From contig NZ_BONV01000018.1 of assembly GCF_016862895.1 (NCBI RefSeq), positions 1 to 64,000 of the forward strand: a stretch of DNA of 64,000 bases, given 5' to 3'. Shown one piece after another: positions 21,049 to 52,237 of the stretch. A program made the position numbers and the translations under genes. This DNA comes from Planotetraspora kaengkrachanensis. Its GTDB lineage: Bacteria; Actinomycetota; Actinomycetes; Streptosporangiales; Streptosporangiaceae. Numbering within the stretch: the stretch's first letter is position 1; every line of letters starts with the position of its first letter. The notes beneath the pieces were generated by a model, which was not told the DNA's origin, did no database searches, and worked only from the letters and a program-made list of their open reading frames with translations.

Positions 21049-21123
21049 CACTTCCCGATCAAGAAGCCGGGCTCGGCACGACGCGGACGAGCACGGTAAT
21101 AGCCGCAGGAAACGGGATAGCCA

Positions 21124-35976: not shown

Positions 35977-35987
35977 GTGTCCTCCGG

Positions 35988-36323
35988 TCAACACGCGCAG
36001 CCTGGCGAGGGGACGGGACGGCCCATGACCACGTCGGCGGCCGTGGGGAAGGCCCCGATGCACGCCTTGTTGATCTCATACAGGCTGGACGTGCCGCGAC
36101 GCTCGACCAGGACGAATCCCACCTCGGCCAACACCTTCAAATGCGCGGAAACGGTCGACTGCCCGACGTCGACCGCCTCGACGATCTCCTTGACCGACAT
36201 GGGCGCCTGGCGGCGGGCCAACAGGGTGACGATCTGGATGCGCGTGGCATCGGCCAGGGCCTTGAACCAGGAGGCGTACTCCATGGCTGTGGTCCGGTCG
36301 AGTGGTCCTGTTCCCTCATTCAT
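35988..36323 (-). CDS. arsR: ArsR-family regulator (upstream of arsM-GNAT)
   Basis: A 111-residue ArsR/SmtB winged-helix protein: YASWFKALADATRIQIVTLL, recognition helix VGQSTVSAHLKVL, wing VERRGTSSLYEIN. It lacks the CxC at the recognition-helix start but ends in GCAC, giving C-terminal cysteines as a possible As(III) site. The ATG lies inside a near-perfect palindrome (36319-36347) and no ribosome site precedes it, so the transcript may be leaderless; an internal ATG at codon 14 is an alternative. Co-transcribed with arsM-GNAT. Confidence 0.9.
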   Translation of the reverse strand: MNEGTGPLDRTTAMEYASWFKALADATRIQIVTLLARRQAPMSVKEIVEAVDVGQSTVSAHLKVLAEVGFVLVERRGTSSLYEINKACIGAFPTAADVVMGRPVPSPGCAC

Positions 36324-36347
36324 CGTTAATCGACGATAAACGATGAA
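36319..36347. promoter_or_regulatory. ArsR operator overlapping the start codon
   Basis: 29-bp element with perfect 9-bp outer arms ttcatcgtt/aacgatgaa and nearly symmetrical inner bases. The start codon of the ArsR gene (36321-36323) lies within the left arm. Typical size and AT content for an ArsR site. Confidence 0.82.
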
Positions 36348-36438
36348 TCAGCTTCGGGGAAGGGCTCGACTGATTGCCTTCACCGACCTGATCCGTTGCC
36401 AGGCCGGTGGTGGTCTTCTTCGTGGCGATGCGTAGATG

Positions 36439-36651
36439 TCAGTAGGCGGGGACGAGTTGGGCGAGGAGTTCCGTGACCCGCTTGTCGATCTCGTCGCGGA
36501 TCGGGCGGACCTGGTCGACCGGCTTGCCGGCGGGGTCGTCGAGTGCCCAGTCCAGGTACCGCTTGCCGGGGAAGATCGGGCAGGCGTCTCCGCATCCCAT
36601 GGTGATGACGACGTCGGCGGCCTGGACCGCTTCGGTGGTCAGGGGCTCGGG
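36439..36651 (-). pseudogene. arsC: 3' half of arsenate reductase (arsC-type), 5' deleted
   Basis: In the frame ending at TGA 36441-36439, the sequence encodes about 70 residues of a low-molecular-weight-phosphatase-type arsenate reductase: LTTEAVQAADVVITMGCGDA, CPIFPGKRYLDWAL and DQVRPIRDEIDKRV. The catalytic loop (CVHNAGRSQ-type P-loop) and everything before it are missing because the DNA joins directly to aquaporin sequence at about 36652. There is no start codon of its own. Confidence 0.85.
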
Positions 36652-36652
36652 G

Positions 36653-36886
36653 AACTAGGGACACCACGGGGTTGAGGTGCGCCCCGGAGACCGGACCGAT
36701 CAACACGATGATGACCGGCAGGGCGGCGGCCGTGGCCGCGCTGTTGGCGAGCAGTTGCACACCGACGTCAGGCGACAGGTGCGCGGCCATGATTTCGGAC
36801 CCGACCACGACTGCGACCAGCAGGCCCGTGCCGAGAGACTCGGCGAAAGCACGCCGGAGAAGGCTGGGAGCCTCGCCCGTGCTCAT
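36653..36886 (-). pseudogene. 5' part of an aquaporin (MIP/aqpS-type) gene, truncated
   Basis: From ATG 36886 the frame encodes 78 residues of a MIP channel: RAFAESLGTGLLVAVVVGSE as first helix and the first NPA-type loop GPVSGAHLNPVVSL. After NPVVSLV the DNA switches to arsenate-reductase sequence in another frame, so the protein would continue as about 90 unrelated residues to a stop at 36380. In related operons ArsR-aquaporin-ArsC are adjacent, with the channel exporting As(III). Start overlaps the ArsR stop by 4 nt (ATGA). Confidence 0.85.
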
Positions 36887-37272
36887 GCCGGAGTGGCGGC
36901 CAGAGCGGACGCGGGGCTGAGCAGCGCGGACATCCGGGCCAGGACGCTCGGGTTGATCCAGTAGTAGGCCCAGGTGCCCCGGCGTTCGGAGTCGATGAGT
37001 CCGGCCTGCTTGAGCACCTTCAGGTGGTGGCTGATCGTCGGTGCGGTCAGGTCGAAAGCGACGGTCAGATCGCACACGCACGCCTCGCCACCCTCATGGC
37101 AGGCGATCAACGACAGCAGGCGCAGCCGTACCGGGTCGGCGATCGCCTTGAACAGCGGAGCAAGCTCCGTCGCCTCGGCCTCGTCCAGCGGTTCACAGAC
37201 CAAGGGCGCGCAGCACGCCTCGGCTGATACCTGAACGCCCACGTCCACGATCGGCAACTCTTGCTTCGGCAT
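36883..37272 (-). CDS. arsR: ArsR-family As(III)-responsive regulator
   Basis: A 129-residue ArsR with an N-terminal Cys-rich arm (EACCAPLVCEPLD) and the classical ACVCDLTVAFDLTAPTISHH, where CVCDL at the start of the recognition helix is the type-1 As(III) site. The ATG at 37272 leaves no ribosome site, so leaderless translation is possible; an upstream in-frame extension to 37308 is unlikely. It formerly headed an arsR-aquaporin-arsC operon that is now broken. Divergent from the 51-residue protein/ArsI operon. Confidence 0.9.
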   Translation of the reverse strand: MPKQELPIVDVGVQVSAEACCAPLVCEPLDEAEATELAPLFKAIADPVRLRLLSLIACHEGGEACVCDLTVAFDLTAPTISHHLKVLKQAGLIDSERRGTWAYYWINPSVLARMSALLSPASALAATPA

Positions 37273-37273
37273 G

Positions 37274-37291
37274 TCTCTAATTTGACAGAGA
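37274..37291. promoter_or_regulatory. Inverted repeat in front of arsR2
   Basis: tctct-N8-agaga (5-bp arms) directly abuts the arsR start codon, in an AT-rich stretch continuing with atctatatac. It could bind ArsR and affect both the arsR side and the divergent arsI operon. Confidence 0.5.
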
Positions 37292-37378
37292 TCTATATAC
37301 GAGTGCAAGCTGACCCCAGTGCGCTACTTAGACGCTTATCAAATCAGGAGTTGCGCGGCCCATCGAATTTCTGCCCTG

Positions 37379-37534
37379 ATGCGCAGGACCACCGGCAAGG
37401 CCGGTCGGGTTCGCGGTGCAGTGACCTTCAACGAAGCCACCGGTGAAGTCTGCGACGGCGCCTGCCGCAGTGACGCCCGGCTCGATCGGGCCCGCACGTT
37501 CGCCATCTCGGCCACCCTCGGCTACCGCCGTTGA
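37379..37534 (+). CDS. Small conserved protein upstream of arsI
   Basis: A 51-residue protein from ATG 37379, below the usual gene-calling size. Core: GAVTFNEATGEVCDGACRSD followed by ARLDRART and an Arg-rich end. Two Cys five residues apart (VCDGAC) could bind metal or As(III). Similar short proteins seem to occur beside arsI-type genes in actinomycetes (recollection, not checked). No good ribosome site is seen, so the start is uncertain; ArsI begins 43 nt later. Confidence 0.5.
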   Translation: MRRTTGKAGRVRGAVTFNEATGEVCDGACRSDARLDRARTFAISATLGYRR

Positions 37535-37576
37535 CCTGGCCCACCCACCGACCCGCAGCCCTTCAGGAGGAACGCC

Positions 37577-38032
37577 ATGTCCCGTGTTCAGCTCGCCCTC
37601 CGTGTCGCCGACCTGGAAGGCTCCGTGGCCTTCTACTCCAAGTTGTTCGGCGTCGAGCCGGCCAAGCGCCGGCCCGGTTACGCCAACTTCGCCATCACCG
37701 AGCCTCCGCTGAAGCTCGTGCTTCTCGAAGGAGAGGGCGACGAGCCGACCCGGATGGATCACCTCGGCGTCGAGGTCGAGGACGCCGGTCAGGTCACCGC
37801 CGCGACTGAACGGCTCAAGCAGGCCGGGCTGGCGACCTTCGAAGAGAACGACACCACCTGCTGTTACGCCGTACAGGACAAGGTGTGGGTCACCGGCCCG
37901 GGCAGCGAGCCGTGGGAGGTCTACGTGGTCAAGGCAGACGCCGACAGCCTGTCCAAGGAAACCGGCTCCGTCTGCTGCGCCACATCGGACACCACCGACC
38001 AGGTGCCCACCGCCGCGTCGTCCTGCTGCTGA
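37577..38032 (+). CDS. arsI: ArsI/CadI-type VOC protein (C-As lyase)
   Basis: A 151-residue VOC protein. Gln5, His62 and Glu114 fall at the spacing I recall for the metal ligands of ArsI, and the vicinal pair Cys95-Cys96 (DTTCCYAVQDKVWV) is the substrate site. The C-terminus is Cys-rich (CCATS and SSCC). ArsI cleaves the carbon-arsenic bond of trivalent organoarsenicals with Fe(II) and O2. Following AGGAGG, it is the last gene of the divergent side of the arsenic locus. Confidence 0.9.
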   Translation: MSRVQLALRVADLEGSVAFYSKLFGVEPAKRRPGYANFAITEPPLKLVLLEGEGDEPTRMDHLGVEVEDAGQVTAATERLKQAGLATFEENDTTCCYAVQDKVWVTGPGSEPWEVYVVKADADSLSKETGSVCCATSDTTDQVPTAASSCC

Positions 38033-38120
38033 CAGGTAGCGTCCGGCGATCGCCCGTTCCCGCGAGTGATCGCCGGACGGCACAGCCGGCGCCCCAGAGT
38101 CGTGTTTCCTCGCCGGTTCG

Positions 38121-38379: not shown

Positions 38380-38700
38380 GTGAGTACTCCCGAACCGGAC
38401 CCCTCGCACCAGATCTCCCAGCGCGACCTCCGCAACCGATCAGCCGAGATCATGGACGGCTTGGAAAGGGGCGAGCGATACGCCGTGACGCGCAACGGCC
38501 ACCACATCGGCGACCTCGTCCCCATCCGCCGGCGGCGCCGAGCCGTCTCTCGGGCGGAGTTCGCCGCTGTTTCCCGAGGGATGCCTCTGCTGGACGATCG
38601 GAAGTATCGCGAAGACATGGATCGCCACGTCAACGACGATCTCTACGACCCTTATGACCGCGCATACGGCAGGGGCGAGTTCACGCAGGACGAGGAATGA
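38380..38700 (+). CDS. Phd/YefM-family antitoxin
   Basis: A 106-residue protein starting with GTG 38380. N-terminal Phd/YefM fold: ISQRDLRNRSAEIMDGLERG and RYAVTRNGHHIGDLVPI, which binds DNA, followed by an acidic, Arg-rich flexible C-terminal half that wraps the toxin. It overlaps the PIN toxin gene by 4 nt. The palindrome upstream is its likely operator. Confidence 0.93.
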   Translation: MSTPEPDPSHQISQRDLRNRSAEIMDGLERGERYAVTRNGHHIGDLVPIRRRRRAVSRAEFAAVSRGMPLLDDRKYREDMDRHVNDDLYDPYDRAYGRGEFTQDEE

Positions 38701-39107
38701 CCCACCGTCACGGACTGCTCGACACCAACATCCTCATCCTGCGCGCAGCCATCGATCCCGATGAACTACCCGACGAGATGATGATCAGCGCCATCACCAC
38801 CGCCGAACTGTCCGTCGGCGTGCTGGCAGCCACTGGACCACAGGAACTCGCCCAGCGGATGAAGATCCTTCAGGCCGTCGAGGCCGAGTTCGATCCCCTG
38901 CCCTTCGACGACACCGCCGCGCGCGAGTACGGCCAACTCTGGACCGCTGTCATCGCCTCAGGCCGCAAACCTCGTCCCCGAACAGCAGACCTGATGATCG
39001 CCTGCGTGGCCATCGCCAACCGGCTGCCTCTGTATACCTGCAACCCGAAGGACTTCAAGGGCCTCGACCACCTGCTCTCAGTGGTCCCTGTGACCCGCCC
39101 GCGATGA
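38697..39107 (+). CDS. vapC: VapC-type PIN-domain ribonuclease toxin
   Basis: A 136-residue PIN protein. Acidic active-site residues: Asp9 in LLDTNILI, Glu in TTAELSVG, Asp in RTADLMIACVA and Asp in CNPKDFKG. VapC toxins cleave tRNA or rRNA at specific positions. It overlaps the antitoxin by 4 nt (ATGA), a standard type II pair. Located in accessory DNA near the tRNA-Ala islands. Confidence 0.94.
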   Translation: MTHRHGLLDTNILILRAAIDPDELPDEMMISAITTAELSVGVLAATGPQELAQRMKILQAVEAEFDPLPFDDTAAREYGQLWTAVIASGRKPRPRTADLMIACVAIANRLPLYTCNPKDFKGLDHLLSVVPVTRPR

Positions 39108-40895: not shown

Positions 40896-41007
40896 GGCCG
40901 CAATCATTGGCGACGCGCATGACGGCCGGCAACTGATTAACGAACCTGCACTCATGGTCAACGGGTTCGGGTATTTCGCTGCTGTATGAGATCGAAAAGG
41001 CCACTAA

Positions 41008-41053
41008 CCCCTGTTGACCGCCCTTAATGGCCCGCTAATGGGCCGACAATCAC
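41008..41053. repeat. Integrase-arm-like repeat, orphan copy
   Basis: This about 46-bp block (ctgttgaccgcccttaatgg ... gctaatgggccgacaatcac) is nearly the same as 43628-43674 and 47126-47172, each of which lies about 70 bp beside a partial tRNA-Ala. Here there is no tRNA piece. The tandem taatggc boxes inside look like arm-type integrase binding sites. It may mark the end of another inserted element. Confidence 0.6.
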
Positions 41054-41161
41054 ATCCGGACCTGCATGGATAGGAGAGGCCAACCGTTTCCGTCCCCAGA
41101 AGTTCGGTAGAGCCAGGATGCGTACGACCGCGAACCTGGATGAGCACATGGCCGCCGCGGG

Positions 41162-41740
41162 CTATGTCACCTCGAACCCGGCAAGCGAGATCTTCTCCAG
41201 TGCGGGCTCATCGAAGGTGACGCCGAACAGCTCACGCATCGCGTCGTCCCCGAGGCTCGTCGCCTCGTACGGGTCTGGCTCGCCATCGCCGTCCAGGTAC
41301 GGAGCCTCGAAGGGGAGCGGATCGCCGACGAGTTCGGACACTCCGTCGCTGCCGGAGGCGCTGAACGAGCGCCGCAAGGTGCCGTCACCGTCCCAGATCG
41401 CGTACGCGAACCAGTCGCCGCCGCTGTGCGTTGCGACCAGGTAGGTCGTCCGGCCCGCGGCCTCGTCCAGGAAGCGCTGGTCAAGCTCGGACGGCTCGGT
41501 GAGGAATGCCTCCTCGGTGCACACAATGGTGAGGCCCGGCAGGCACGTCGCATATACCTGGCCGTCCTCGGGTGAGGACTGGAGGAGCAAGGTGCCGTCG
41601 CCGATCTCACTGATCCGCCGCCCGGGATGCAGTCGCCGGACGAGCGTGCGGGTCGCCTCCCTGTCAAGGGTCGGCGCGGCACGCAGAATGGGACGCGGGT
41701 CGCCCTCGACATACAGCAGCATCCAGGCTTTGGCACCCAT
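41162..41740 (-). CDS. DUF6928 family protein
   Basis: A 192-residue protein from ATG 41740 (MGAKAWMLLYVEGDPRPILR). The family is an actinobacterial set of unknown function with conserved LVATHSGGDWFAYAIWD and GDPLPFEAPYLDGDGEPD blocks, seen here. No membrane segment or signal peptide is present. It is followed on the left by the orphan arm repeat and sits in accessory DNA. Confidence 0.82.
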   Translation of the reverse strand: MGAKAWMLLYVEGDPRPILRAAPTLDREATRTLVRRLHPGRRISEIGDGTLLLQSSPEDGQVYATCLPGLTIVCTEEAFLTEPSELDQRFLDEAAGRTTYLVATHSGGDWFAYAIWDGDGTLRRSFSASGSDGVSELVGDPLPFEAPYLDGDGEPDPYEATSLGDDAMRELFGVTFDEPALEKISLAGFEVT

Positions 41741-41776
41741 TGGGGCTCCTCTCCCGTGCAACGTCCAGCCGCCGAC

Positions 41777-41913
41777 AAACTAGCCTCACCCTGCGATGCA
41801 GCCGTCGACGGGTCCCTAGCCGTGGTCAACTCCGCCTCGGCCCAAGCTGACCCAACTGCCGTCACATCGATGCACTGACCAGTTACCGGCCACAAGGACA
41901 CAAGTCGGCGCGT
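41777..41913. repeat. Dispersed repeat, copy 2
   Basis: Second copy of the repeat at 27297-27420. Shared blocks: aactag at the left end, gtggtcaactccgcctcg, gtcacatcgatgcactgacca and aagtcggcgc. Copy 2 is about 13 bp longer in the middle. Confidence 0.55.
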
Positions 41914-41985
41914 CTGCTCCCAATGCGCAATGCCGTGCAGGCATAAAACCAGGCCTGTCATCCTCGATCGACTTGGGAGGTCCGC

Positions 41986-43311
41986 ATGCTTGCGCGTTGG
42001 AAGAGAAATATGGCGCAGAATCGTTGTCCGGAGCTGCCCAGCGGGCGCCATGAGCGCGGACGGCGATTCCGAAGCCGGCCATTGGTGACCGCGGCCGCCA
42101 TCGCGATCGGGCTGGCGCCACTGGCAGCAGTAACCGGGCCCGCTCTGGCCGAACAGAAGCCCGTCCCGGGAGAATTCGCCTACGTCAACAACAACGGCAA
42201 CAGCACCGTGTCGCGGCTCAACACCACGACCAACACCATCGTCGCCACCATCCCCCTCCCTCCCAAGGCCAATACGATCGGGTCGGAGGTCACGCCGAAC
42301 GGTGCCTTCTACTACGTGGCCAACGCCGGCCTCGACAACGTCATGAAGATCGACACCGTGACCAACAGAATCGTCGCCGTCATCCAACTCCCCGACAAGG
42401 CCGCTCCCAACGGAGTGGGGATCACGCCGGACAGCCGCTTCATCTACGTCACCAACAAGGGCGGCAACTCCGTCACGAAGATCGACGTGGCCACCAACGC
42501 CATCCTCGCCACCATCCCCGTCGGGACCGCTCCCGAGTCAGTGGCGGTCACGCCGAACGGCGCCTTCGCCTACGTCTCCAACAGCGGCAGCGACAACGTC
42601 ACGAAGATCAGAGTCTCCGATAACGCCATCCTCGCCACCATCCCCGTCGGGAGCGCTCCTCGGGGGGTGAAGATCACGCCGAACGGCGCCTTCGTCTACA
42701 TCGCCAACAACGGCAAGGGCATGGTCGGCAACGGCACCGTTTCGAAGATCAGCACCGCGGACGACACGGTCATCACCATCCCCCTCGGGACGACCGGTCC
42801 GACCTGGTTGTCGATCACGCTGGACAGCGCCTTCACCTACGTCACCAACAACGGCAGCAACAACGTCACGAAGATCAGAGTCTCCGACAACACCGTCGAC
42901 GCCACCATCCCCGTCGGGATGGGTCCCAGGGGGATGTGGATCAACACCAGCGGCACCCAGATCTACGTGGCCAATCACGACAGCGACTCGGTGTCGGTGA
43001 TCAATGTCGCCAACAACGGCATCGACGCGACCATCAAGTTCCCCGACGGGGCCGGTCCCGAGGGAGTGGCGTTCGGGCGCCACCCCGTGCCCGTGAAGGT
43101 GAAGGCGACCACGACTCAGAGCTCAAGCTCCGGCGACATCGTGAGGAGTAAGAACGAGAACTTCACCGGCGTCGTCGCCACAGGGGGCAATGGGGACAAG
43201 GTCCGCAAGAAGCTGGCCGGCATCGACTCCTTCGTGCAGCAGGTGAAGCAACGCCATCTCAATAACCCTGCCCTCATCAAGCATCTGATGGGCGCCGGGC
43301 AACACGGCTGA
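41986..43311 (+). CDS. Secreted YVTN-repeat seven-bladed propeller protein
   Basis: A 441-residue protein with a GGGAGG ribosome site. A signal peptide (about residues 30-55, ending GPALA) is followed by seven blades of about 42 residues, each with the YVTN-type core (FAYVNNNG, FYYVANAG, FIYVTNKG, FAYVSNSG, FVYIANNG, FTYVTNNG, QIYVANHD), a complete propeller. The C-terminal roughly 70 residues (SKNENFTGVVATGG onward) form a lysine-rich tail unlike the blades; a relic of the same tail occurs at 38121-38270. YVTN proteins are surface-exposed binding proteins; no partner is evident here. Confidence 0.9.
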   Translation: MLARWKRNMAQNRCPELPSGRHERGRRFRSRPLVTAAAIAIGLAPLAAVTGPALAEQKPVPGEFAYVNNNGNSTVSRLNTTTNTIVATIPLPPKANTIGSEVTPNGAFYYVANAGLDNVMKIDTVTNRIVAVIQLPDKAAPNGVGITPDSRFIYVTNKGGNSVTKIDVATNAILATIPVGTAPESVAVTPNGAFAYVSNSGSDNVTKIRVSDNAILATIPVGSAPRGVKITPNGAFVYIANNGKGMVGNGTVSKISTADDTVITIPLGTTGPTWLSITLDSAFTYVTNNGSNNVTKIRVSDNTVDATIPVGMGPRGMWINTSGTQIYVANHDSDSVSVINVANNGIDATIKFPDGAGPEGVAFGRHPVPVKVKATTTQSSSSGDIVRSKNENFTGVVATGGNGDKVRKKLAGIDSFVQQVKQRHLNNPALIKHLMGAGQHG

Positions 43312-43337
43312 CGCCGTCAGGCACGCACCATCACCAA

Positions 43338-43374
43338 GCGCCCCCTGACCTCTTCGAGGGAAGGGGGCGCCCTT
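43338..43374 (+). terminator. Intrinsic terminator of the YVTN gene
   Basis: A 9-bp gcgccccct/agggggcgc stem (43338-43346 and 43362-43370) followed by ccttttc lies 27 bp after the stop. Confidence 0.85.
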
Positions 43375-43480
43375 TTCGCATCTGCCGTGTGTGGACGACC
43401 GGTGGCCGATCCCGATCGAACTCGGCTCTTTCGGTCTCCTGAGCGCACGGGTGGAGGCCGAGAAGTGCTAATGGCACGAA

Positions 43481-43512
43481 AGCCCCGTTTCTTGATCAGA
43501 AACGGGCGTTTT
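43481..43512. terminator. Hairpin beside the tRNA-Ala relic
   Basis: cccgtttct/agaaacggg (43484-43492 and 43498-43506) with a T-run at 43509-43512; on the minus strand the hairpin lies just past the tRNA relic's 3' end, where a tRNA terminator would be. Confidence 0.6.
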
Positions 43513-43518
43513 ACCAGG

Positions 43519-43560
43519 TGGAGCCTAGGAGATTCGAACTCCTGACATCCTGCTTGCAAA
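43519..43560 (-). pseudogene. Partial tRNA-Ala (3' part), attachment-site scar A
   Basis: These 42 nt are identical to positions 32-73 of the intact tRNA-Ala at 49376-49448 (anticodon loop to discriminator). The 5' half is replaced by tcggccgg... on the right. This is the expected attL/attR product of a tRNA-integrating element. Element side is to the right (43561 onward). Confidence 0.9.
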
Positions 43561-43627
43561 TCGGCCGGATCATCTGAGGAAACGGCCGCGACCTGGGCGA
43601 GGGGCAGTCCGCGAGCGACCATGACTA

Positions 43628-43674
43628 CCCCCTGTTGACCGCCCTTAATGGCCCGCTAATGGCCCGACGATCAC
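43628..43674. repeat. Integrase-arm-like repeat beside scar A
   Basis: About 47 bp with two taatggc boxes, repeated at 47126-47172 and 41008-41053. It lies about 70 bp inside the element from the tRNA relic, where integrase arm sites are expected. The intervening 43561-43627 also matches 47059-47125 in long blocks (ggaaacggccgcgacctggg). Confidence 0.7.
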
Positions 43675-43825
43675 GCTCACAAGCTGAGGCGGGGTGCCGT
43701 AGCGCCGGCCCCGGCCACCTGGTCCGCCCGGCAGGGCAGGGGTGCGCTCTCGCACCCTCCTCTACAGCCCACCCGCGACGTTGCGGCCCCAGAGCCACGA
43801 TGCCCTGGCCAGCCGCTCCCGCGGC

Positions 43826-44401
43826 TCAGGGGTGGAGCTTCTTTCCTTCAGCCAGCATCGCCACGTACTTCTCGATCCGGCGCGCCCTGGTCTCGGTCTT
43901 CTTGACATCCTGGATCCGATAGAGGATCGCGTAGCGATTTTGCCGGTCCAGCTTTTCGAAGAACTCTGCCGCAGCCGGATTGGCCGCCAGCGCCGCCACC
44001 AGGTCGTCCGGCACCGAGGCCGTCCGTGCACCGTCGTAGGCGGCCTCCCAGCGTCCGCTCGCCTTGGCACGCTCAACCTCGGCTAGCCCCGCTGGCCGCA
44101 TCCGGCCCTGCTCGATCAGGGCTACTGTTTTATCCCGGTTGACCTTGGACCACTTGCTGTTCGGCCTGCGCGGGGTGAACCGCTGCAGCCAGTACAGGTC
44201 GTCGTACTTGCCCTTCTGCCCGTCGATCCAGCCATAACAGAGCGCCACATCGAGGGCCTGGGCGTAGTCCAAGGCCACGATGCCGGGGCCCTTCTTCCGC
44301 AGCTTGAGCCAGACACCTGCGGAGATCGCGTGGTGCTCGCTAAGCCAGGTCTCGAATGCCTCGGCAGATTCAAACGAGACGATCTCCAAATCCTCGGCCA
44401 T
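43826..44401 (-). CDS. YdeI/OmpD-associated family protein
   Basis: A 191-residue protein of the YdeI/OmdA-like family: WLSEHHAISAGVWLKLRKKG, ALDVALCYGWIDGQK, FTPRRPNSKWSKVNRDK and the C-terminal LAANPAAAEFFEKLDRQNRY helix. Members are linked to stress and to resistance to peptide antibiotics or bacteriocins in other bacteria; the mechanism is unclear. It lies inside the first island at tRNA-Ala. Confidence 0.87.
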   Translation of the reverse strand: MAEDLEIVSFESAEAFETWLSEHHAISAGVWLKLRKKGPGIVALDYAQALDVALCYGWIDGQKGKYDDLYWLQRFTPRRPNSKWSKVNRDKTVALIEQGRMRPAGLAEVERAKASGRWEAAYDGARTASVPDDLVAALAANPAAAEFFEKLDRQNRYAILYRIQDVKKTETRARRIEKYVAMLAEGKKLHP

Positions 44402-44566
44402 CCGTCGCCGTCACCCCTCCCCGTCTGCAGCCTGCTGAGAGTACCTGAGGTCGGCGGAGAGACTTTGGGCTGGAGCTTGCCATGGGGCGAGAGATCATGG
44501 CCCGCTGGCCCGCGAGCGAATCGGGCTGGCTTCTCGCCTGCCCGCATAGCCCGATCTGGGGCCATT

Positions 44567-44683
44567 ATGCGCTGGGTCGACGTCGTGAAGGACATGGGCA
44601 TGCCGGGCCTGCACTTCCCGAAGCTCTGCGAACACCTCGCGGCGACGAATTCACCGTCACTGCGCCACAAAACCGACGATTAG
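44567..44683 (+). pseudogene. Tyrosine-recombinase fragment (relic)
   Basis: In one frame the DNA encodes RWVDVVKDMGMPGLHF, the block directly before the HDLRHT catalytic motif of actinobacterial tyrosine integrases, then a damaged PKLCEHLAAT where HDLRHTGNTLAAT would be expected, and a stop at 44681. Upstream and downstream parts are missing. Short match, so tentative. Confidence 0.4.
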
Positions 44684-44692
44684 TCGTAATTT

Positions 44693-44822
44693 GCCTACAC
44701 GTCACGTAAACCGCATATCGGTTCTAGGCGTGATAGATCATGGGTGGACGGCCGGTCCAGTGACGACGAGGACGAACCGCAGCGAACACCCATAGCTGCG
44801 TCGATCATGAGGGGTACATCGC
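44693..44822 (+). promoter_or_regulatory. Promoter and 5' leader of the second RCC1 gene
   Basis: Same blocks as 18801-19009: acgtaaa..cgcat, tagatcat..gtgga, gacgaggacgaaccgcagcg, a cgcagc/gctgcg hairpin (44778-44800) and gatcatga..gg just before the start codon. The stretch 44402-44566 contains nothing else I recognise. Confidence 0.55.
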
Positions 44823-46865
44823 ATGGCTGGTCTGATGGCTGGGGCTTCGCCCGGCTCTGTTCCCGCGGAGACGGTGGGCGGGCGATGGAGAAGGCACAGG
44901 GCCCGTGGTCGGGGGCGTGCTTTAGCGGCCGGTCTTGTGCTGGCCGTGAGCGCTCCCGCAGTGTCGGTCCTCGGGCCGGCAGGCCCGGCGGCGGCCTCCA
45001 GCGGCACCTCGACCGCGTACGCGTGGGGTTATAACTTCTGGGGGCAGGTGGGCGCAGGGTCTTCGGAGGAGGACACGTCCTCCCCGGTGGCTGTGTCCGG
45101 ACTGAGCCAGGTGGCGCAGGTCAGCGCCGGTGACTACCACAGCCTCGCGGTGCGCACGGATGGCACCGTGTGGGCCTGGGGCGACAACACCAACGGGCAG
45201 TTGGGCAACGGGACGACGTCGTACAGTTCGGTACCCGTGCCTGCGCAGGTGCCTGGATTGACCGGCGTCGTGCAGGTCGCTGCGGGCAACCAGCACAGCC
45301 TTGCGTTGCGCTCGGATGGCACCGTGTGGGCCTGGGGCTCCAACGGCTTCGGACAGCTCGGTGACGGCAGCAAAACCTGGAGTCGTAGTACCCCGGTGAA
45401 GGTGGCCGGGTTGACCGGGGTGACCCAGATCTCCGCCGGTTACTACCACAGTCTCGCGTTGCGCTCAGATGGCACCGTGTGGGCCTGGGGCGATAACCAT
45501 TCGGGGCAGCTCGGTGACGGGACCGAAACCGAGCGCGCCACCCCGGTGAAGGTGGCCGGGTTGACCGGGGTGACCCAGGTTGCCGCCGGCGTTGGCCACA
45601 GCCTTGCGGTGCGCACGAACGGCACTGTGGTGGGGTGGGGCTCCGACAGCGTCGGGCAACTCGGCGATGGCAGCGCCGGCGTCAACCTGGAGCGGCACAC
45701 CCCGGTGGCGGTCAAGGGCCTGACCAAGGTGATCAAGGTCGACGCCGGCGATGCCCACAGTCTCGCGGTTCGCTCGGACGGCACGGTGGCGGCCTGGGGC
45801 TATAACTACTACAGGCAGCTCGGTGACGGCACCACCACCAACCGCACCACCCCGATCACTGTGCCAGGGCTGACCAACGTCGCCCAGGTCAGCGCGGGCA
45901 GTTACGACAGTGCCGCGCTCCGCTCGAACGGCACCGTGGCGGCGTGGGGATTCAACTACCTCGGCCACGCGCAGCTCGAAGACGGCACCCCCGTCACCCA
46001 GCCGGATGACAGGCAGTGGAGATCCCCGGTCTACGTGCCCGGGCTGATCTCGGTCACCCAGATCTCGACCGGGAGCTCCCACACACTGGTGAAGGTCGGC
46101 CCGCCGGCGCTGACAGGCAAGGCGTCGATCACCGGCACCGGCGCCGTCGGCACCAAGCTGACCTGCAAGGCGTCCTTCCTCGCCGCCACCTCGGTCAAAT
46201 ACAGCTGGATGCGGGACACGACCACGATTTCCGGCGCGACCACCGCCACCTACACGCCGGTGACCGGCGACGCCGCACACAAGGTGACCTGCAAGGCCAC
46301 TGGCACCAACAGCCGGGGCAGCACCGACACCTCGGCGAGCATCAGCGGCTACGTCCCGGCGAAGTTCGCCAGTGGCACTCCGCCGGTCGCGCAGACCGCT
46401 AAGTACTTCATCTACAGGTTCGCGGCCACCGGGACCCCCACACCGAAGGTCACCCGCGCCTCCGGCACCCTCCCGCCCGGTCTGAAGCTGGCCCCCGGCG
46501 GCACCCTGTCCGGAACCCCCACCAAGGGCGGCACGTACACCTTCACCCTGCAGGCGACCGGCGGCATCGGCACCCCCACCAAGGCCACCAAGACCGTCGT
46601 CGTCCGCGCCCCCGCGAAGTTCACCACGGCCACCACACCGGTGGCGCACGCGGGCAAGTACTACATCTACAAATTCCCGACAACCGGATACCCCGTGCCG
46701 AAGGTCACCCGCGCCTCCGGCACACTCCCGCCCGGCCTGAAACTCGCCACCGGCGGCACCCTGTCCGGAAAGCCCACCCGCAAGGGCACCTACAAGTTCA
46801 CCCTCAAGGCGACCAACGGCGTCGGCACCCCAGCCACAGCCACCAAGACCGTCGTCGTTCGCTGA
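44823..46865 (+). CDS. Secreted RCC1-repeat seven-bladed propeller with Ig-like domains (paralogue)
   Basis: A 680-residue paralogue of the protein at 19010: Arg-rich signal peptide (about residues 20-58, ending GPAAAS), seven RCC1 blades (WAWG.N..GQLGDG and SAG..HSLALRSDGT), an Ig-like segment and two He_PIG repeats with LPPGLKLATGGTLSGKPT at the end. The first repeat has an extra acidic insertion (GSSEEDTSSP). GAGGGG precedes the start. It sits in an island beside tRNA-Ala while its paralogue is in a different context 25 kb away, so one copy was probably carried in by the element (inference). Confidence 0.92.
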   Translation: MAGLMAGASPGSVPAETVGGRWRRHRARGRGRALAAGLVLAVSAPAVSVLGPAGPAAASSGTSTAYAWGYNFWGQVGAGSSEEDTSSPVAVSGLSQVAQVSAGDYHSLAVRTDGTVWAWGDNTNGQLGNGTTSYSSVPVPAQVPGLTGVVQVAAGNQHSLALRSDGTVWAWGSNGFGQLGDGSKTWSRSTPVKVAGLTGVTQISAGYYHSLALRSDGTVWAWGDNHSGQLGDGTETERATPVKVAGLTGVTQVAAGVGHSLAVRTNGTVVGWGSDSVGQLGDGSAGVNLERHTPVAVKGLTKVIKVDAGDAHSLAVRSDGTVAAWGYNYYRQLGDGTTTNRTTPITVPGLTNVAQVSAGSYDSAALRSNGTVAAWGFNYLGHAQLEDGTPVTQPDDRQWRSPVYVPGLISVTQISTGSSHTLVKVGPPALTGKASITGTGAVGTKLTCKASFLAATSVKYSWMRDTTTISGATTATYTPVTGDAAHKVTCKATGTNSRGSTDTSASISGYVPAKFASGTPPVAQTAKYFIYRFAATGTPTPKVTRASGTLPPGLKLAPGGTLSGTPTKGGTYTFTLQATGGIGTPTKATKTVVVRAPAKFTTATTPVAHAGKYYIYKFPTTGYPVPKVTRASGTLPPGLKLATGGTLSGKPTRKGTYKFTLKATNGVGTPATATKTVVVR

Positions 46866-46873
46866 TCACATGA

Positions 46874-46908
46874 TCCCGGGGAATCGGCACACCACCGACT
46901 CCCCGGGA
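46874..46908 (+). terminator. Hairpin terminator after the second RCC1 gene
   Basis: 14-bp arms (46874-46887 and 46895-46908) with the same cacacca loop as at 21014-21048. Confidence 0.8.
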
Positions 46909-47016
46909 CACCCAAACAGAAGATCACAACGGAACAGACGCACAGCGGGCCCGAAAGCCGAATAACGATCAAAGCCCAGGTCGGGAAAGTAACCCTGACC
47001 TGGGCTTTCGTATGGG

Positions 47017-47058
47017 TGGAGCCTAGGAGATTCGAACTCCTGACATCCTGCTTGCAAA
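47017..47058 (-). pseudogene. Partial tRNA-Ala (3' part), attachment-site scar B
   Basis: Another 42-nt copy of tRNA-Ala positions 32-73. On its left, the tRNA's downstream hairpin (aagcccagg ... cctgggctttcgtatggg, about 46971-47016) is also duplicated as in the intact locus at 49341-49375, so the duplication is longer than at scar A. Element side is to the right. Confidence 0.9.
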
Positions 47059-47125
47059 TCGGTCTGCTCTTCAGGGGAAACGGCCGCGACCTGGGCGACA
47101 AGCAGTCCACGAGTGACTGTGAGTG

Positions 47126-47180
47126 CCCCCTGTTGACCGCCCTTAATGGCACGCTAATGGCACGGCGATCACGCTCACGA
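47126..47180. repeat. Integrase-arm-like repeat beside scar B
   Basis: Third copy of the arm repeat; here the two boxes read taatggcac, giving a cleaner 11-bp direct repeat (ttaatggcac/ctaatggcac). Confidence 0.7.
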
Positions 47181-47320
47181 CCTGCAGCAGCCGGCCATGC
47201 ACGGCCCGTCCCCTGGTCTGCGCCCGTCCTCCTCGTAGCTGCCGATCCCCAGGACGGGACCGCCGTGTCAAGGGTCAGCGAAGCTGATCGCGGAGCGACG
47301 CCGCAGGCGCCCCCGGGCTC

Positions 47321-47395
47321 GTGTTGACCGCCTGGACGCTGGGGCTGGGCGCGCTGGCGGTCGCCGCCTACCGGCGCGCTAGCGTTACGGCCTGA
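47321..47395 (+). pseudogene. C-terminal fragment of a membrane transporter gene
   Basis: The frame ending at TGA 47393-47395 encodes LTAWTLGLGALAVAAYRRA, the last membrane helix and tail of an ABC-2-type permease (AYRR is a frequent end). The TGA overlaps the ATG of the histidine kinase (TGATG), so the remnant kept the translational coupling after its 5' part was lost at the element boundary. Inference from a short stretch. Confidence 0.55.
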
Positions 47396-48516
47396 TGAAC
47401 CGACTTTTCCGGGGCGACGTCGAAGGCCCCGAGCTGCTGCAACGGGCCTTCTGGATGTCGTTCGGACTGCTGTTCCTGACCCCGGTCGGGGTGGCGGTGG
47501 CCCATTACGAGGGAACGCGGCGCTGGCTGGGCTTGGCGGCCATGGTGGTGTTCGCGCTGGCGTACTACGCGGCGGCGTTCGTGCGGTGGAGATGGGACGA
47601 CCCGTTCACGGTGCCGTCGGTGACGGTGCTGGGGACGTTCGCGCTGCTGGCGGCGGGGCTGCCACCGCTGTTCGGGCTCGACTGGCTGGGTCTGCCGATC
47701 TACCTGGCATTCGTGCTGGCGATGTCGCTGCCGCTGCGGTGGGCCCCGTTCGGGGTGCTGGGGTCGATGGCCGTGATAGCCGGGGACGGGGTGCTGGTCG
47801 GCGCCCCGGCCCCGATGATCGGCGGGTTCGCGCTGGTGCTACTGGCGTTCGGGATGATGATGGTCGCGCTCCGGCACTCGCGGACGCTGGTGGTGCAGCT
47901 GCGCGAGGCGCGCGGCGAGGTCGCCCGGCTCGCCGCCGCCGACGAGCGGCTGCGCATCGCCCGCGACCTGCACGACCTGCTCGGCCACAGCATGTCGCTG
48001 ATCGTGCTGAAGAGCGAGCTGGCGCGGCGGCTGGCCGACCGGGACCTGGTCCGCGCCGTCACCGAGATCGGCGACATCGAGTCGGTGGCGCGGTCCTCGC
48101 TGGCGGACGTGCGCGAGGCGATCTCCGGCTACCGGCGGCGTGACCTGGGCGAGGAACTGGACGGCGCGCGGGCGGTCCTGTCGGCGGCCGGGGTAGACAC
48201 GACGGTGCGGATGGCGGGCGCGCCCCTGCCGGAGGCGGCCGACGGCGTGTTCGGCTGGGCGGTGCGCGAGTCGGTCACCAACCTTGTCCGCCACGCACGC
48301 GCTTCCCGCTGCGTCATCGAGGTGGGACGCGACGGCGACGAGGCGGTGCTGGAGGTCCGCGACAACGGCCGGGCCAAGGGGAAGCACGTTCCGGGCAACG
48401 GCCTGAACGGCCTGTCCGAGCGCGTCGCGGCCGAGGGCGGCACGATGGAGTCCGGCCCGCTGCCGGGCGGCGGCTTCCGGGTCGCGGTCCGCGTTCCCGT
48501 AGGGTCTGCCTCATGA
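47395..48516 (+). CDS. Two-component sensor histidine kinase, DesK-like
   Basis: A 373-residue kinase. Five to six hydrophobic segments fill the first 155 residues, then a coiled coil, the phospho-acceptor region LRIARDLHDLLGHSMSLIVL, N-box RESVTNLVRHARA and G-box GNGLNGLSERVAAEGG. It overlaps the response regulator by 4 nt (ATGA). Its former upstream partner, a transporter, survives only as a C-terminal scrap. It lies between scar B and the intact tRNA-Ala. Confidence 0.92.
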   Translation: MNRLFRGDVEGPELLQRAFWMSFGLLFLTPVGVAVAHYEGTRRWLGLAAMVVFALAYYAAAFVRWRWDDPFTVPSVTVLGTFALLAAGLPPLFGLDWLGLPIYLAFVLAMSLPLRWAPFGVLGSMAVIAGDGVLVGAPAPMIGGFALVLLAFGMMMVALRHSRTLVVQLREARGEVARLAAADERLRIARDLHDLLGHSMSLIVLKSELARRLADRDLVRAVTEIGDIESVARSSLADVREAISGYRRRDLGEELDGARAVLSAAGVDTTVRMAGAPLPEAADGVFGWAVRESVTNLVRHARASRCVIEVGRDGDEAVLEVRDNGRAKGKHVPGNGLNGLSERVAAEGGTMESGPLPGGGFRVAVRVPVGSAS

Positions 48517-49157
48517 TCAGGGTCATGCTGGCGGAAGACCAGAACATAGTGCGGGGCGCGCTGGCGGCATTGCTCGGGCTGGAGGAGGACCTGGAGGTCG
48601 TCGCGGAGGCGGCGGGCGGCGACGAGGCGGTCGTCGCCGCCGAACGGGTGCGGCCCGACGTGGCGTTGCTGGACATCGAGATGCCCGGCAAGGACGGGCT
48701 GACCGCCACCGCCGAAATCCGGGCGGCGGTGCCCGGGTGCCGGGTGATGATCCTGACGACGTTCGGGCGGCCGGGCTACCTGCGGCGGGCCATGGAGGCG
48801 GGCGCGTCGGCGTTCCTGATCAAGGACGGACCGGCGCAGGAACTGGCGGCGACGATCCGGCGGGTCGTAGCCGGGGAGCGCGTCATCGACCCGGGGCTGG
48901 CGGCGGCCGCATTGAGCGCCGGACCCAACCCGCTGTCGCCGCGCGAACGGGACGTACTGGCGGCCGGGGCGGACGGGTCCACGATCGCCGACATCGCGGC
49001 CAGGCTCCACCTGTCGGAGGGGACCGTCCGCAACTACCTGTCGTCGGCGATCAACAAGGTCGGCGTACGCAACCGCATCGAGGCCGCCAAGGCGGCCGAG
49101 CGGAACGGATGGTTGTATACGCCATGCAACACGCTCGCGGCCAGCGCAGGGGCGTGA
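48513..49157 (+). CDS. NarL-type response regulator with integrase-derived C-terminus
   Basis: A 214-residue regulator: receiver domain with phospho-acceptor Asp54 (VALLDIEMP), and a LuxR helix-turn-helix (LSPRERDVLAAGADGSTIAD, SEGTVRNYLSSAINKVG). Members normally stop shortly after the EAAKAAERNGWL helix; here translation runs on with YTPCNTLAASAGA, which matches the NTLAASAGA block of tyrosine integrases, and stops at TGA 49155. The same frame continues after the stop as integrase (TRELLARMGHSS). So the native stop was lost by fusion to an integrase gene. Confidence 0.88.
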   Translation: MIRVMLAEDQNIVRGALAALLGLEEDLEVVAEAAGGDEAVVAAERVRPDVALLDIEMPGKDGLTATAEIRAAVPGCRVMILTTFGRPGYLRRAMEAGASAFLIKDGPAQELAATIRRVVAGERVIDPGLAAAALSAGPNPLSPRERDVLAAGADGSTIADIAARLHLSEGTVRNYLSSAINKVGVRNRIEAAKAAERNGWLYTPCNTLAASAGA

Positions 49158-49385
49158 ACGCGGGAACTGCTGGCGCGGATGGGTCACTCCAGCACGCGCG
49201 CCGCACTGATCTATCAACACTCGACGGACGCGCGACAGCGGGCCTCTGCGCAGAAGCTGAACGACGTAGCCCGAGGCGTCCTCGGCGAGATCATCGGGCA
49301 CACAACGGGCACGAAACCCCGAACAGCCCTACAGAAATCAAAAGCCCAGGCCGTTGACCTGGGCTTTCGTATGGGTGGAGCCTAG
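49158..49385 (+). pseudogene. C-terminal relic of a tyrosine integrase
   Basis: In the same frame as the response regulator, after its TGA, the DNA encodes TRELLARMGHSSTRAALIYQH: the HxxR-type motif MGHSSTRA and the catalytic Tyr (ALIYQH) of a tRNA-site integrase, then DARQRASAQKLNDVA and a tail that runs through the tRNA terminator and ends TAG in the tRNA 3' end. All upstream catalytic residues (Arg, Lys, HxxR first part) are missing, so it cannot act. Its position directly against tRNA-Ala is that of an integrated element's int gene. Confidence 0.85.
49341..49367. terminator. tRNA-Ala terminator
   Basis: A 10-bp stem aaagcccagg/cctgggcttt with a 7-nt loop lies immediately downstream of the tRNA on the minus strand; its U-tract on that strand is short. 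It also lies within the integrase relic. Confidence 0.75.
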
Positions 49386-49448
49386 GAGATTCGAACTCCT
49401 GACATCCTGCTTGCAAAGCAGGCGCTCTGCCAGCTGAGCTAAGGCCCC
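49376..49448 (-). tRNA. tRNA-Ala (anticodon TGC)
   Basis: 73 nt. The 7-bp acceptor stem includes the G3-U70 pair that identifies alanine tRNAs; D-loop AGCTCAGCTGGCAGAGC (within 20 nt), anticodon stem CCTGC/GCAGG around TTTGCAA, T-arm GAGTTCGAATCTC, discriminator A73. No CCA is encoded. Both partial copies to the left match its 3' 42 nt. It is the integration site of the accessory elements. Confidence 0.97.
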
Positions 49449-50347: not shown

Positions 50348-50467
50348 TCAGTTCTCGCTACCTGTCGCCTCGGTCCACAGGTCGAGCTCGGCGCGGTTAG
50401 TCTGCACCTTGCGCCAGACCAGCAGCCCCCCGAGAGCGACCAGCGCGAGAACGAGCAGCTTCTTCAC
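50348..50467 (-). CDS. DLW-39 family small protein
   Basis: A 39-residue protein from GTG 50467 with AGTGGGG upstream. One N-terminal hydrophobic segment (KKLLVLALVALGGLLVW), then a charged tail with the diagnostic ELDLW. The 39-residue length and DLW motif match the actinobacterial DLW-39 family, whose genes are usually close to gyrA and tRNA-Ala/Ile genes; here tRNA-Ala is 0.9 kb away. Function unknown; membrane-associated by the helix. Confidence 0.8.
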   Translation of the reverse strand: MKKLLVLALVALGGLLVWRKVQTNRAELDLWTEATGSEN

Positions 50468-50489
50468 GGTGTGACCCCACTTCTCAACG

Positions 50490-50510
50490 GTCTCACCTGC
50501 CGGGTGAGAC
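50490..50510. promoter_or_regulatory. Inverted repeat upstream of DLW-39
   Basis: gtctcacc-N5-ggtgagac, 8-bp perfect arms, 23 bp ahead of the DLW-39 start. A second near-palindrome (gcatgccgtacggcgtgc, 50618-50635) lies further up. No gene is visible in 50511-50793. Confidence 0.5.
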
Positions 50511-50793
50511 AACGCCCGGTTCTACGGTTCTCTGCAGCCTAGCAAGGGTTCGGCGCGTGACCCTGATTGCTTGAGAATCGGTTGCACCAGATCGATAATT
50601 AACGACCCGCCCGCCGGGCATGCCGTACGGCGTGCGCGACCGGTAGGTGAATCATGACTGCCCAGGTCACACCTTCATTAACCCTCGCGGCGCCCCGCCG
50701 CCGAGCGGTTGTGAGGGCCTGGTTTCGGATGACACGCCACCGCTCCGCCGTGAGCATAAGGCCGTCCGGGCCGGCGAAAAGGCTCCGGCGGCT

Positions 50794-51189
50794 TCAGGGA
50801 AGCTTCGTGCAAAGCCGCAAGGTCGTGCCGTGTGGCCCCGTCCTCACCTCCCGTCTGGCCAGTCGGTTCATCAGCCACAGTCCACGCCCGCCGAAGTCGA
50901 ACCGGGTCGACGGATAGTCGCGGTCAAGGGCTTGGGCGGGGATGCCGGGCCCCCCGTCGGACACTTCACAGATCAGCAGACCCGAATCGACCCACATGGC
51001 GATCCCGCGCGGCGGCAGGCCGTGCCGTACCGCGTTGGTCAGGGCTTCATGGACGGCCAGCACGAAGTCCTCCAGCGCGGCGCCTCCGAGCCCGGCGTCG
51101 CGCGCGGACTCCGTGACGAGATGCCGCACCCTGGTGATCGAACCCAGTTCGAACTCCAAGGTGAGCAGGCTGCTCACCAACGTCATCAT
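50794..51189 (-). CDS. RsbW-like ATP-binding protein
   Basis: A 131-residue GHKL ATPase domain: N-box FVLAVHEALTNAVRHGLP (near residue 45) and G-box FGGRGLWLMNRLA (near residue 100). Such proteins are anti-sigma or regulatory kinases. It lies downstream, in the same direction, of an Scr1-type XRE regulator and a DUF397 gene, a typical WhiJ-like set. Confidence 0.88.
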   Translation of the reverse strand: MMTLVSSLLTLEFELGSITRVRHLVTESARDAGLGGAALEDFVLAVHEALTNAVRHGLPPRGIAMWVDSGLLICEVSDGGPGIPAQALDRDYPSTRFDFGGRGLWLMNRLARREVRTGPHGTTLRLCTKLP

Positions 51190-51331
51190 CGCCTTCCGCT
51201 TTCACACAGTGGCAACTCTCCCCTTACCACCGATGCACGACTGACACATCTCATTCGCCGGCCGGGTGCTCTCCCCGGCGTGACAAAGCCGTGGCCGACG
51301 AGGCCACGGGGGACGGCGGGACGCGGCGGGC

Positions 51332-52237
51332 TCAGAGGTCCACTGAGATCTCGTGAAGGATGCGGCGGGAGTCCGTCGCCGGCCCGGCGGTGATGCAGAG
51401 GCGTTCCATGACCGCGAGATAGTGGTCGACGTCGTCGCGTTTGTCTAGATAGACCGCGCTGGTGAGCTGTTCGAGGTAGACGACGTCGGGGAGGTCGCGG
51501 TCGGCGAAGCGCACGATGCTGAAAGGTCCCCCCGCGGCCGCGTGACCGCCGGCGCTGAACGGAACCACCTGCAGGGTGACCTCGGGCCTGGCCACCAGGT
51601 CCAGGAGGCGGGCGATCTGCCCCCGCATGACGGCCGGGCCGCCGGGCGAGCGCCGCAGGACCGACTCGTCGACGACCGCCCAGACGTGCGGCGGGTTCGG
51701 GCCGGTGAGCACCCGCTGGCGGGCCATCCGGAACTCGACGCGTCGCTCGACGTCCTCCGGACGGGCGTCGGGGTGTCCGAGCCGGATCACCGATCGCGCG
51801 TAGTCCTCGGTCTGCAGCAGTCCGGGTACGAACTGGACCTCGTAGTTCCTGATCCCGGTGGCCGCCTGCTCGAGGCCGACGTACATCTCGAACCACGAGG
51901 GGACGATGTCGCCGTAGTTGTGCCACCAGCCGGGGACGCCGGCCTCGGACACGAGGGTCAGCATGGCGGCCCGTTCGGCCTCGTCGGCCACGCCGTACAG
52001 GGTGAGCAGGTCCGCGACGTCGCGCCCTCGGACGCTCACGCGGCCCAGCTCCATTCGGCTGATCTTGGAATGTGAGGCGCGGATGGCGTGCCCGGCCTCT
52101 TCGAGCGTGATGTTCCTGCTCTCACGCAGGCGGCGCAGCTGGGTGCCCAGGAGGATCCGCAGGACCGTGGACGTTCGAGGTGGTGCGGTGGGGGTGCGCG
52201 GGTGTGGCTGTGCGCCCTCCGTCGGGGCCGTAGTCAT
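51332..52237 (-). CDS. Scr1-type XRE regulator with DUF5753 ligand domain
   Basis: A 301-residue protein. XRE helix-turn-helix (residues about 30-90: LGTQLRRLRESRNITLEEAG, HSKISRMELGRVSVR) and the DUF5753 sensing domain (YVGLEQAATGIRNYEVQFVP, GLLQTEDYARSVIR). Scr1/WhiJ proteins in Streptomyces regulate development and antibiotic production and act with DUF397 (AbaA/BldB-like) partners; one is adjacent here. The intergenic 52238-52316 lies between them. Confidence 0.92.
   Translation of the reverse strand: MTTAPTEGAQPHPRTPTAPPRTSTVLRILLGTQLRRLRESRNITLEEAGHAIRASHSKISRMELGRVSVRGRDVADLLTLYGVADEAERAAMLTLVSEAGVPGWWHNYGDIVPSWFEMYVGLEQAATGIRNYEVQFVPGLLQTEDYARSVIRLGHPDARPEDVERRVEFRMARQRVLTGPNPPHVWAVVDESVLRRSPGGPAVMRGQIARLLDLVARPEVTLQVVPFSAGGHAAAGGPFSIVRFADRDLPDVVYLEQLTSAVYLDKRDDVDHYLAVMERLCITAGPATDSRRILHEISVDL

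Follow-up and report, generated by a model that had tools for sequence, protein, structure and literature searches.

An accretion island at a tRNA-Ala(TGC) gene of Planotetraspora kaengkrachanensis, very probably built from actinomycete integrative and conjugative elements decaying into small modules

Tycheposons of marine cyanobacteria are tRNA-anchored elements that use tyrosine recombinases and carry cargo and remnants, although their element genes differ from those considered here. The cis-mobilisable elements (CIMEs) of the ICESt1 family, as Pavlovic et al. reportedly described in 2004, are remnants bounded by att sites that were born by deletion and moved by tandem accretion, the target being a protein gene. 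In a Streptomyces population, actinomycete integrative and conjugative elements (AICEs) and defective AICEs have accreted at a tRNA-Arg gene as tandem elements with direct repeats between them and with integrases of 39-88% identity; one remnant lacked traB, and mobilisation in cis was proposed (Choufa et al. 2022, PMC9513070). Tandem AICEs, with integrases of one or two subfamilies, were also described at tRNA-Lys in Frankia, where the pair excises both singly and jointly, and at tRNA-Arg in S. avermitilis (Ghinet et al. 2011, PMC3218068). The ssrA islands of Dehalococcoides contain many tandem direct repeats of the 3' end of the RNA gene, and 15 of them that lack an integration module were suggested to be CIMEs (PMC3146451). 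In this study, we analysed the first 64,000 nucleotides of contig NZ_BONV01000018.1 of Planotetraspora kaengkrachanensis (assembly GCF_016862895.1), hereafter the window, in which partial copies of a tRNA-Ala(TGC) gene stand in tandem beside the intact gene. Accretion at a tRNA is already known, and the small modules that were found at this locus in related genomes are a possible new variant of it. The top-ranked papers that our literature search returned (most subscription journals lay outside it) held no account of this locus or of one-kilobase modules with hybrid arms.

Our reading, of which we are highly confident, is that the window contains a site-specific accretion island of AICEs that are decaying into CIME-like modules. 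It starts from the tRNA gene and the copies of its 3' half, the att core:

49374-49448, minus strand: intact tRNA-Ala(TGC), predicted by ARAGORN
49376-49417: att core, i.e., the 3' half of the tRNA, of which exact core copies occur
43519-43560, strand not assigned: core copy A, 42/42 to tRNA positions 32-73
47017-47058, strand not assigned: core copy B, 42/42 to tRNA positions 32-73

The preliminary description of this DNA, which was made from the sequence alone, had reported both copies in tandem to the left of the intact gene, each followed by homologous DNA that resembled an integrase arm, and this was borne out. The DNA to the right of the two copies is 88% identical over 170 nt, core included, with repeats near 43628 and 47126. 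Copy B shares 21 nt more with the intact site on its left side, 63 nt in total. Beyond the tRNA and the two copies, nowhere in the window did either strand reach 26/42 to the core, and a 141-nt query of the tRNA region had only four matches in the own genome: the tRNA, copies A and B and one match of 75% on contig C43. Copies at unrelated loci, which would have spoken against integration, did not occur in this genome. The tandem core copies at tRNA-Ala are real and far beyond chance. On the other side of the gene, some part of the host flank (window 50356-51341) was matched in 334 of 341 genomes of the family, which makes it a convenient marker of the locus.

The sequences that adjoin the cores proved to be the more informative part of the locus. 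We surveyed the DNA to the left and right of 140 cores (at least 35/42 matches) at 62 loci in 58 genomes, named the arm families from a portion of these cores and then scored all of them by script. The same core is flanked by arm repeats of four families, for which we use our own names: alpha (TTAATGGCCCGCTAATGGC), beta (TTGCTGTAC..CTGCTGTAC), gamma (ATCGGGCACGCGACGGGCAC) and delta (TAGTCACTCAGTTAGTCACTC). Profiles that were built from the typed arms located the following arms in the window; the best control E-values were 0.12 on 256 kb of resampled window sequence and 0.006 on the window outside the island.

47059-47185, plus strand: alpha P' arm, left end of module 47017-49375 (E 1.3e-37; the arm itself is in the profile set)
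43561-43685, plus strand: alpha P' arm, left end of module 43519-47016 (E 2.3e-36; also in the profile set)
41003-41058, plus strand: truncated alpha P' arm without core (profile positions 64-119, E 4e-13)
40970-41005, plus strand: truncated beta P arm that abuts the alpha arm (profile positions 32-67, E 2.2e-7)
43467-43518, plus strand: alpha P arm, right end of module 41003-43518 (E 3.7e-9)
46938-47015, plus strand: gamma P arm, right end of module 43519-47016 (E 1.4e-17)
49291-49374, plus strand: gamma P arm beside the tRNA, right end of module 47017-49375 (E 3.5e-15)
27477-27553, plus strand: tentative beta P' arm remnant (E 1.5e-5)
18681-18737, plus strand: tentative gamma P-arm-like hairpin, of which the hairpin half alone matches (E 3.3e-7)

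Three arm families thus meet in the window: alpha, beta and gamma. The alpha arm at 47059-47185 carries the repeats TTAATGGCACGCTAATGGC, while the truncated one at 41003-41058 matches the arm repeat block at 40/42, the best core match there being 18/42. By its arms, the stretch 40970-41058 is a third junction, in which the right end of a beta element meets the truncated left end of an alpha element and the core is gone. At least two successive insertions had been proposed; with this junction, there are at least three modules in tandem. The tentative beta remnant at 27477-27553 is possibly the left end of an old beta element that ended at 41005. The alpha P arm at 43467-43518 is 98% identical over 53 nt to the end of module 3 in G077 (P. 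thailandica). The gamma arm at 46938-47015 was typed by its hairpin and profile, its repeat motif score being just 0.67. The other gamma arm contains what had been described as a tRNA terminator duplicated at copy B. The 63-nt identity behind that claim stands, but the sequence is the arm of a gamma element with its hairpin, and other genera again have such hairpin-bearing arms to the left of their cores. Each of the two core-bounded modules, 43519-47016 and 47017-49375, is a hybrid, alpha on the left and gamma on the right, and module 41003-43518 is alpha-alpha with its left core lost. We know of no hybrid arms of unrelated integrases among the CIMEs of the ICESt1 family.

The preliminary description had also suggested that complete relatives of the element should be sought, and one was found at the same tRNA in G138 (Microtetraspora fusca). 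Here a 12.8-kb element with alpha arms at both ends lies between two cores and encodes FtsK/TraB, RepSA, HTH_17 xis-like and tyrosine integrase domains; judged by these domains, this module 3 of G138 is a complete AICE. The first 296 nt of window module 47017-49375 are 91% identical to its left end. Seven more modules, in which the integrase was the part checked, contain an intact one. Gamma integrases that are 51-53% identical to the alpha integrase adjoin cores in three genomes (G325, G012, G015). Nonomuraea gerenzanensis has a third type (about 27% to alpha) near a core; together, these suggest that the same tRNA-Ala core is used by at least two, probably three, integrase families. It is barely credible that the partial copies in the window arose as pseudogenes or by tRNA gene duplication, with no part played by mobile elements: they are indeed partial tRNA sequences in tandem, but each has an integrase arm on its right and an element-type arm on its left, integrase relics lie in the same modules, and the complete element at the same place in G138 contradicts such an origin.

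The window modules themselves were said to have kept their cargo while their mobility genes decayed, and the comparison with the G138 AICE and the seven other modules with intact integrases agrees with this. The cargo reading frames are open and the integrase is left as fragments only:

41162-41761, minus strand: DUF6928 protein (cargo of module 41003-43518)
41986-43311, plus strand: beta-propeller (Lactonase/YNCE-like) protein (cargo of module 41003-43518)
43826-44401, minus strand: YdeI/OmpD-associated (OmdA) protein (cargo of module 43519-47016)
44570-44662, plus strand: weak integrase fragment between the OmdA and RCC1 genes (41% over 34 residues, E 0.007)
44823-46865, plus strand: RCC1-repeat protein with Ig-like domains (cargo of module 43519-47016)
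47395-48516, plus strand: histidine kinase, HisKA_3 (cargo of module 47017-49375)
48513-49157, plus strand: LuxR-type response regulator, its 3' end fused to the integrase relic (cargo of module 47017-49375)
49128-49319, plus strand: C-terminal relic of a gamma integrase, interrupted by an in-frame stop (64% identity over 64 residues)

The relic had earlier been placed at 49158-49385, next to the tRNA. It is present, but the match to the integrase already begins near 49128, where the response-regulator open reading frame has not yet ended; this frame reads into the relic as NTLAASAGA, a stop and then TRELLARMGHSS, within the 64-residue gamma-integrase match. Queries with 11 G138 AICE proteins and three integrases gave no match to RepSA, TraB or Xis in window 17-50.5 kb; this search returned integrase fragments and two accessory-protein homologues at 24.9-25.5 kb.

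An AICE has int, xis, rep and an FtsK-type tra gene between two att sites, a set that module 3 of G138 possesses and the window lacks. In the case of CIMEs, att sites related to those of an integrative and conjugative element (ICE) are present in the window (cores of 42/42 and a left end like that of the G138 AICE), and of recombination and transfer genes fragments alone remain. However, the two ends of a CIME should come from the same ICE family, and those of 43519-47016 and 47017-49375 do not. We call the window modules CIME-like only, because their arms are hybrid or, in 41003-43518, the left core is lost. As to mobilisation in cis with a neighbouring ICE, which also belongs to the definition of a CIME, the core-bounded sharing of a related module among other genomes speaks for it only indirectly. 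Tandem modules split by copies of the tRNA 3' end, as in a tRNA-targeting accretion island, are what the window displays. An integron cassette array was considered and rejected: the two integrases that were scanned are Phage_integrase proteins with SAM-like N-terminal domains (no IntI or attC model was run), and the sites here are a tRNA 3' half with arm repeats.

The following course of events would account for these features. AICEs with tyrosine integrases of at least two and probably three families would recombine at the 3' half of tRNA-Ala(TGC), every insertion restoring the tRNA at its right end and shifting the older insertions leftward, so that the order of insertion would run from left to right. 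Each older insertion would stay bounded by a copy of the 42-nt core. Later deletions within or across neighbouring elements would remove int, xis, rep and tra and leave the cargo, cores and arms; we infer that such deletions were the source of the hybrids, and the outcome would be CIME-like modules, several of them with unmatched arms.

A comparison with an empty tRNA-Ala locus, as had been proposed, yielded one candidate, which belongs to another genus. In G058, no further core occurs within 18.9 kb to the left of the tRNA, and its flank is 93.5% identical over 108 nt, up to the core edge, to the flank left of the core in G005 (which lies at a contig start) and 76.7% identical over 1289 nt to that in G325, ending 6 nt before the core. 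In the own genus no empty site was seen, G125 ending at a contig edge 2.35 kb from the tRNA. Four further loci with a single core in view (G028, G142, G220 and G079) were rejected as empty sites, since in every one the tRNA borders on an arm that is either element-type or unclassified. Among the relatives, we did not see the same arrangement without element-like genes or without an empty-site counterpart, the empty site being a candidate from another genus.

The pile at this tRNA is widespread in the family. A further core (at least 31/42) was found in 40 of the 52 loci with the tRNA in view, within the stretch fetched and in a partly selected sample. Of 338 family genomes, 132 contained the core with up to three mismatches (80 in two or more places, 52 in one), compared with 47 of 353 genomes of the same class outside the family, two of them more than once; this census was a pattern search counted by hand and misses genomes whose tRNA differs by more than three bases. 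We tabulated 80 modules between neighbouring cores at 44 loci, an integrase being taken as intact when the match covered at least 85% of the query. Eight modules had one, and in all seven of these with both arms typed the arms matched. Among the 72 modules without an intact integrase, both arms were typed in 41, with 16 matched and 25 hybrid (Fisher p 0.003; 32 of the 80 modules untyped, some right arms typed by hairpin). When typing relied on repeat motifs only, the figures were 7/7 matched versus 15 matched and 12 hybrid (46 untyped; p 0.036). As the modules share ancestry, are not independent and come from loci that were partly chosen for alpha arms, these p values are a guide only. Additionally, a piece of about 100 nt from module 3 of L026 (reverse strand; positions ~2446-2558) recurs at ~70-93% in many modules of different arrays.

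The smallest modules deserve separate attention. A module of 995-1004 bp occurs between cores in four genomes of two genera: G022 (Planotetraspora silvatica), G077, G138 and G038 (M. malaysiensis). It is integrase-less and, by its domains, toxin-antitoxin-like: one of its proteins is BrnT-like (E 0.002, which falls below the Pfam cut-off) and another, at the cut-off, is a ribbon-helix-helix (RHH) protein. Its arms are alpha on the left and beta-like on the right, the right one being typed by hairpin. Nucleotide identities of the module and the host flank are as follows:

G022-G077: module 98.3%, host flank 85.0%
G022-G138: module 95.0%, host flank 78.7%
G077-G138: module 94.7%, host flank 80.0%
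G022-G038: module 93.7%, host flank 78.4%
G077-G038: module 93.5%, host flank 79.7%
G138-G038: module 95.0%, host flank 96.8% (fits descent)

For the five pairs listed first, the colinear homology has its left boundary at the left core (from 2 nt before it to 4 nt inside it) and its right boundary 0-6 nt beyond the right core. At the protein level, P. thailandica and M. fusca share the 119-residue product of P. silvatica with 100% identity. These identities suggest that the module probably moved between genera as a core-bounded unit. In the family as a whole, 70 of 338 genomes matched it at 1e-20, many of them via core and arm only.

How it moved is less clear-cut. Small integrase-less modules could be independently mobile cassettes that are circularised and reinserted singly by an integrase acting in trans, in the manner of integron cassettes with a tRNA anchor. 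We regard this as doubtful, although several observations favour it. Homology is bounded by the cores in five of the six pairs, in which the module is 93.5-98.3% identical against 78-85% for the host flank, and the module stands at positions 1, 3, 2 and 2 in the stretches shown of G022, G077, G138 and G038. Furthermore, among 54 modules with a right arm typed as alpha, beta or gamma and without an intact integrase, 28 had no detectable integrase remnant within 2.2 kb, whereas 14 had one of up to 70 residues, seven one of 71-200 residues and five a longer one; about 6% without a remnant would be expected if deletion ends fell evenly inside int. This count is inflated by the decay of old remnants, and it becomes 25 of 51 when the copies of the BrnT-like/RHH module are counted once. 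However, with unmatched arms, a single integrase may not excise the 1.0-kb module alone, and three of the four genomes have an alpha right end beyond it on the right, so that a composite with an alpha AICE could have carried it. The sixth pair, G138-G038, fits descent, with homology continuing beyond the module through like arms. Finally, when plasmids were searched with the module, one chromosome-sized Nonomuraea record matched, and only through core and arm (12% of the query); in the plasmid and phage collections, apart from this record with an arm, only short tRNA-type matches were found. Because the arms are unmatched, travel with the neighbouring alpha element is more likely than travel alone, and passive co-mobilisation with a neighbouring AICE is the route that we infer.

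A broader idea can be put forward tentatively, and we would not be surprised to see it fail: the tRNA-Ala 3' half may be a shared dock for several unrelated integrases in this family, yielding miniature integrase-less modules of about 1 kb (cargo and arms, sometimes a toxin-antitoxin-like pair) that move between genera core-bounded with the help of a resident AICE, cassette-like but not integrons.

Colinearity with the relatives places the accretion island in a wider frame. It stops near 18.65 kb with G022 and near 21.06 kb with G104, and at the 18.7-kb point 93 nt separate the colinear blocks in the window, against 19 nt in G104; on this comparison, the variable island extends from a left edge at ~18.7 or 21.1 kb to a right edge at 49.4 kb. 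Its blocks follow each other in the window as arsenic-type genes, VapBC-like pair, beta-propeller gene and RCC1, and in G104 as beta-propeller gene, arsenic-type genes, VapBC-like pair and RCC1. The VapBC-like block adjoins the tRNA after an RCC1-like stretch in G125 and precedes such a stretch in G104 and G022. This permutation between the window and G104 could mean that copies and arms spread by ordinary homologous recombination at repeated arms and cores, with no site-specific step, and cores with their arms do offer 150-200 nt of high identity, enough for recombination. We consider this improbable, as the homology of the 1.0-kb module halts at the cores in all pairs but one, intact elements have int next to att and matching arms, and the candidate empty-site junction falls at the core. 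The RCC1 module of the window is 94.8% identical to G104 over 2400 nt; because its flanks differ equally (likewise 94.8%), it was probably inherited vertically since the two genomes split.

RCC1-gene homology occurs twice in the window, at 18771-21063 (near the left island edge) and at 44777-46911, each copy being ~75% identical to the counterpart of the opposite copy in G104. The Phd/PIN (VapBC-like) pair at 38380-39107 is present, whole or in part, in 4/4 same-genus relatives and also inside a 1088-bp att-bounded module of G138. The arsenic-type cluster at 34681-38078 comprises ArsR regulators, a methyltransferase-GNAT fusion, an aquaporin-like fragment and a glyoxalase-fold protein; it is 86-87% identical to G104, with a different order.

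Several points weigh against an accretion island of decaying AICEs or limit it. A simple CIME that derives from one element would not be expected to have hybrid arms, and the loci were partly chosen for alpha arms. The hairpin at 18681-18737 sits where colinearity with G022 ends, but hairpin-only arm matches such as this one are weak, because they also occur outside arrays (G022 33845, E 1e-10; G104 13614, E 3e-5). G325 has an extra core with an alpha arm (L147), ~17.7 kb further left, which a single native flank does not explain; this leaves some doubt about G058 as an empty site. We also dropped the idea that the window modules are mobile at present, since an alpha integrase query (E <=1e-10) found in the own genome only five fragments, of which one lay at a contig end and none aligned over more than 98 residues.

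These fragments are on contigs C43, C31, C15, C52 and C41, and C52 and C31 also gave weak alpha-arm matches, so that further integration hotspots may exist in this genome. Away from the locus, a RepSA gene with an open frame of 514 residues at C4:60723-62081 possibly belongs to another AICE; C54 has a second match, which is partial.

The locus shows how one tRNA gene can gather cargo from several unrelated conjugative elements over long times, and it offers a natural series, from a complete element to a one-kilobase module, that could be used for testing passive mobilisation. If small modules do move, alone or as composites, they could offer small genes, toxin-antitoxin pairs for example, a way of spreading among filamentous soil bacteria that is easily overlooked, as no integrase is found beside them.

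Compared with the described systems, the locus resembles the accretion at tRNA-Arg in Streptomyces (PMC9513070), which likewise has tandem elements with different integrases, and remnants, at one tRNA. Unlike that case as described, the target here is tRNA-Ala, the pile recurs in many genera of one family, and there are many modules of ~1 kb without detected element genes and with arms that are often hybrid. The AICEs of Frankia and S. avermitilis (PMC3218068) also stand in tandem at one tRNA, but they are complete, whereas only relics remain in the window. The Dehalococcoides ssrA islands (PMC3146451) differ from the present locus in their serine recombinase, their tmRNA target and their reductive dehalogenase cargo.

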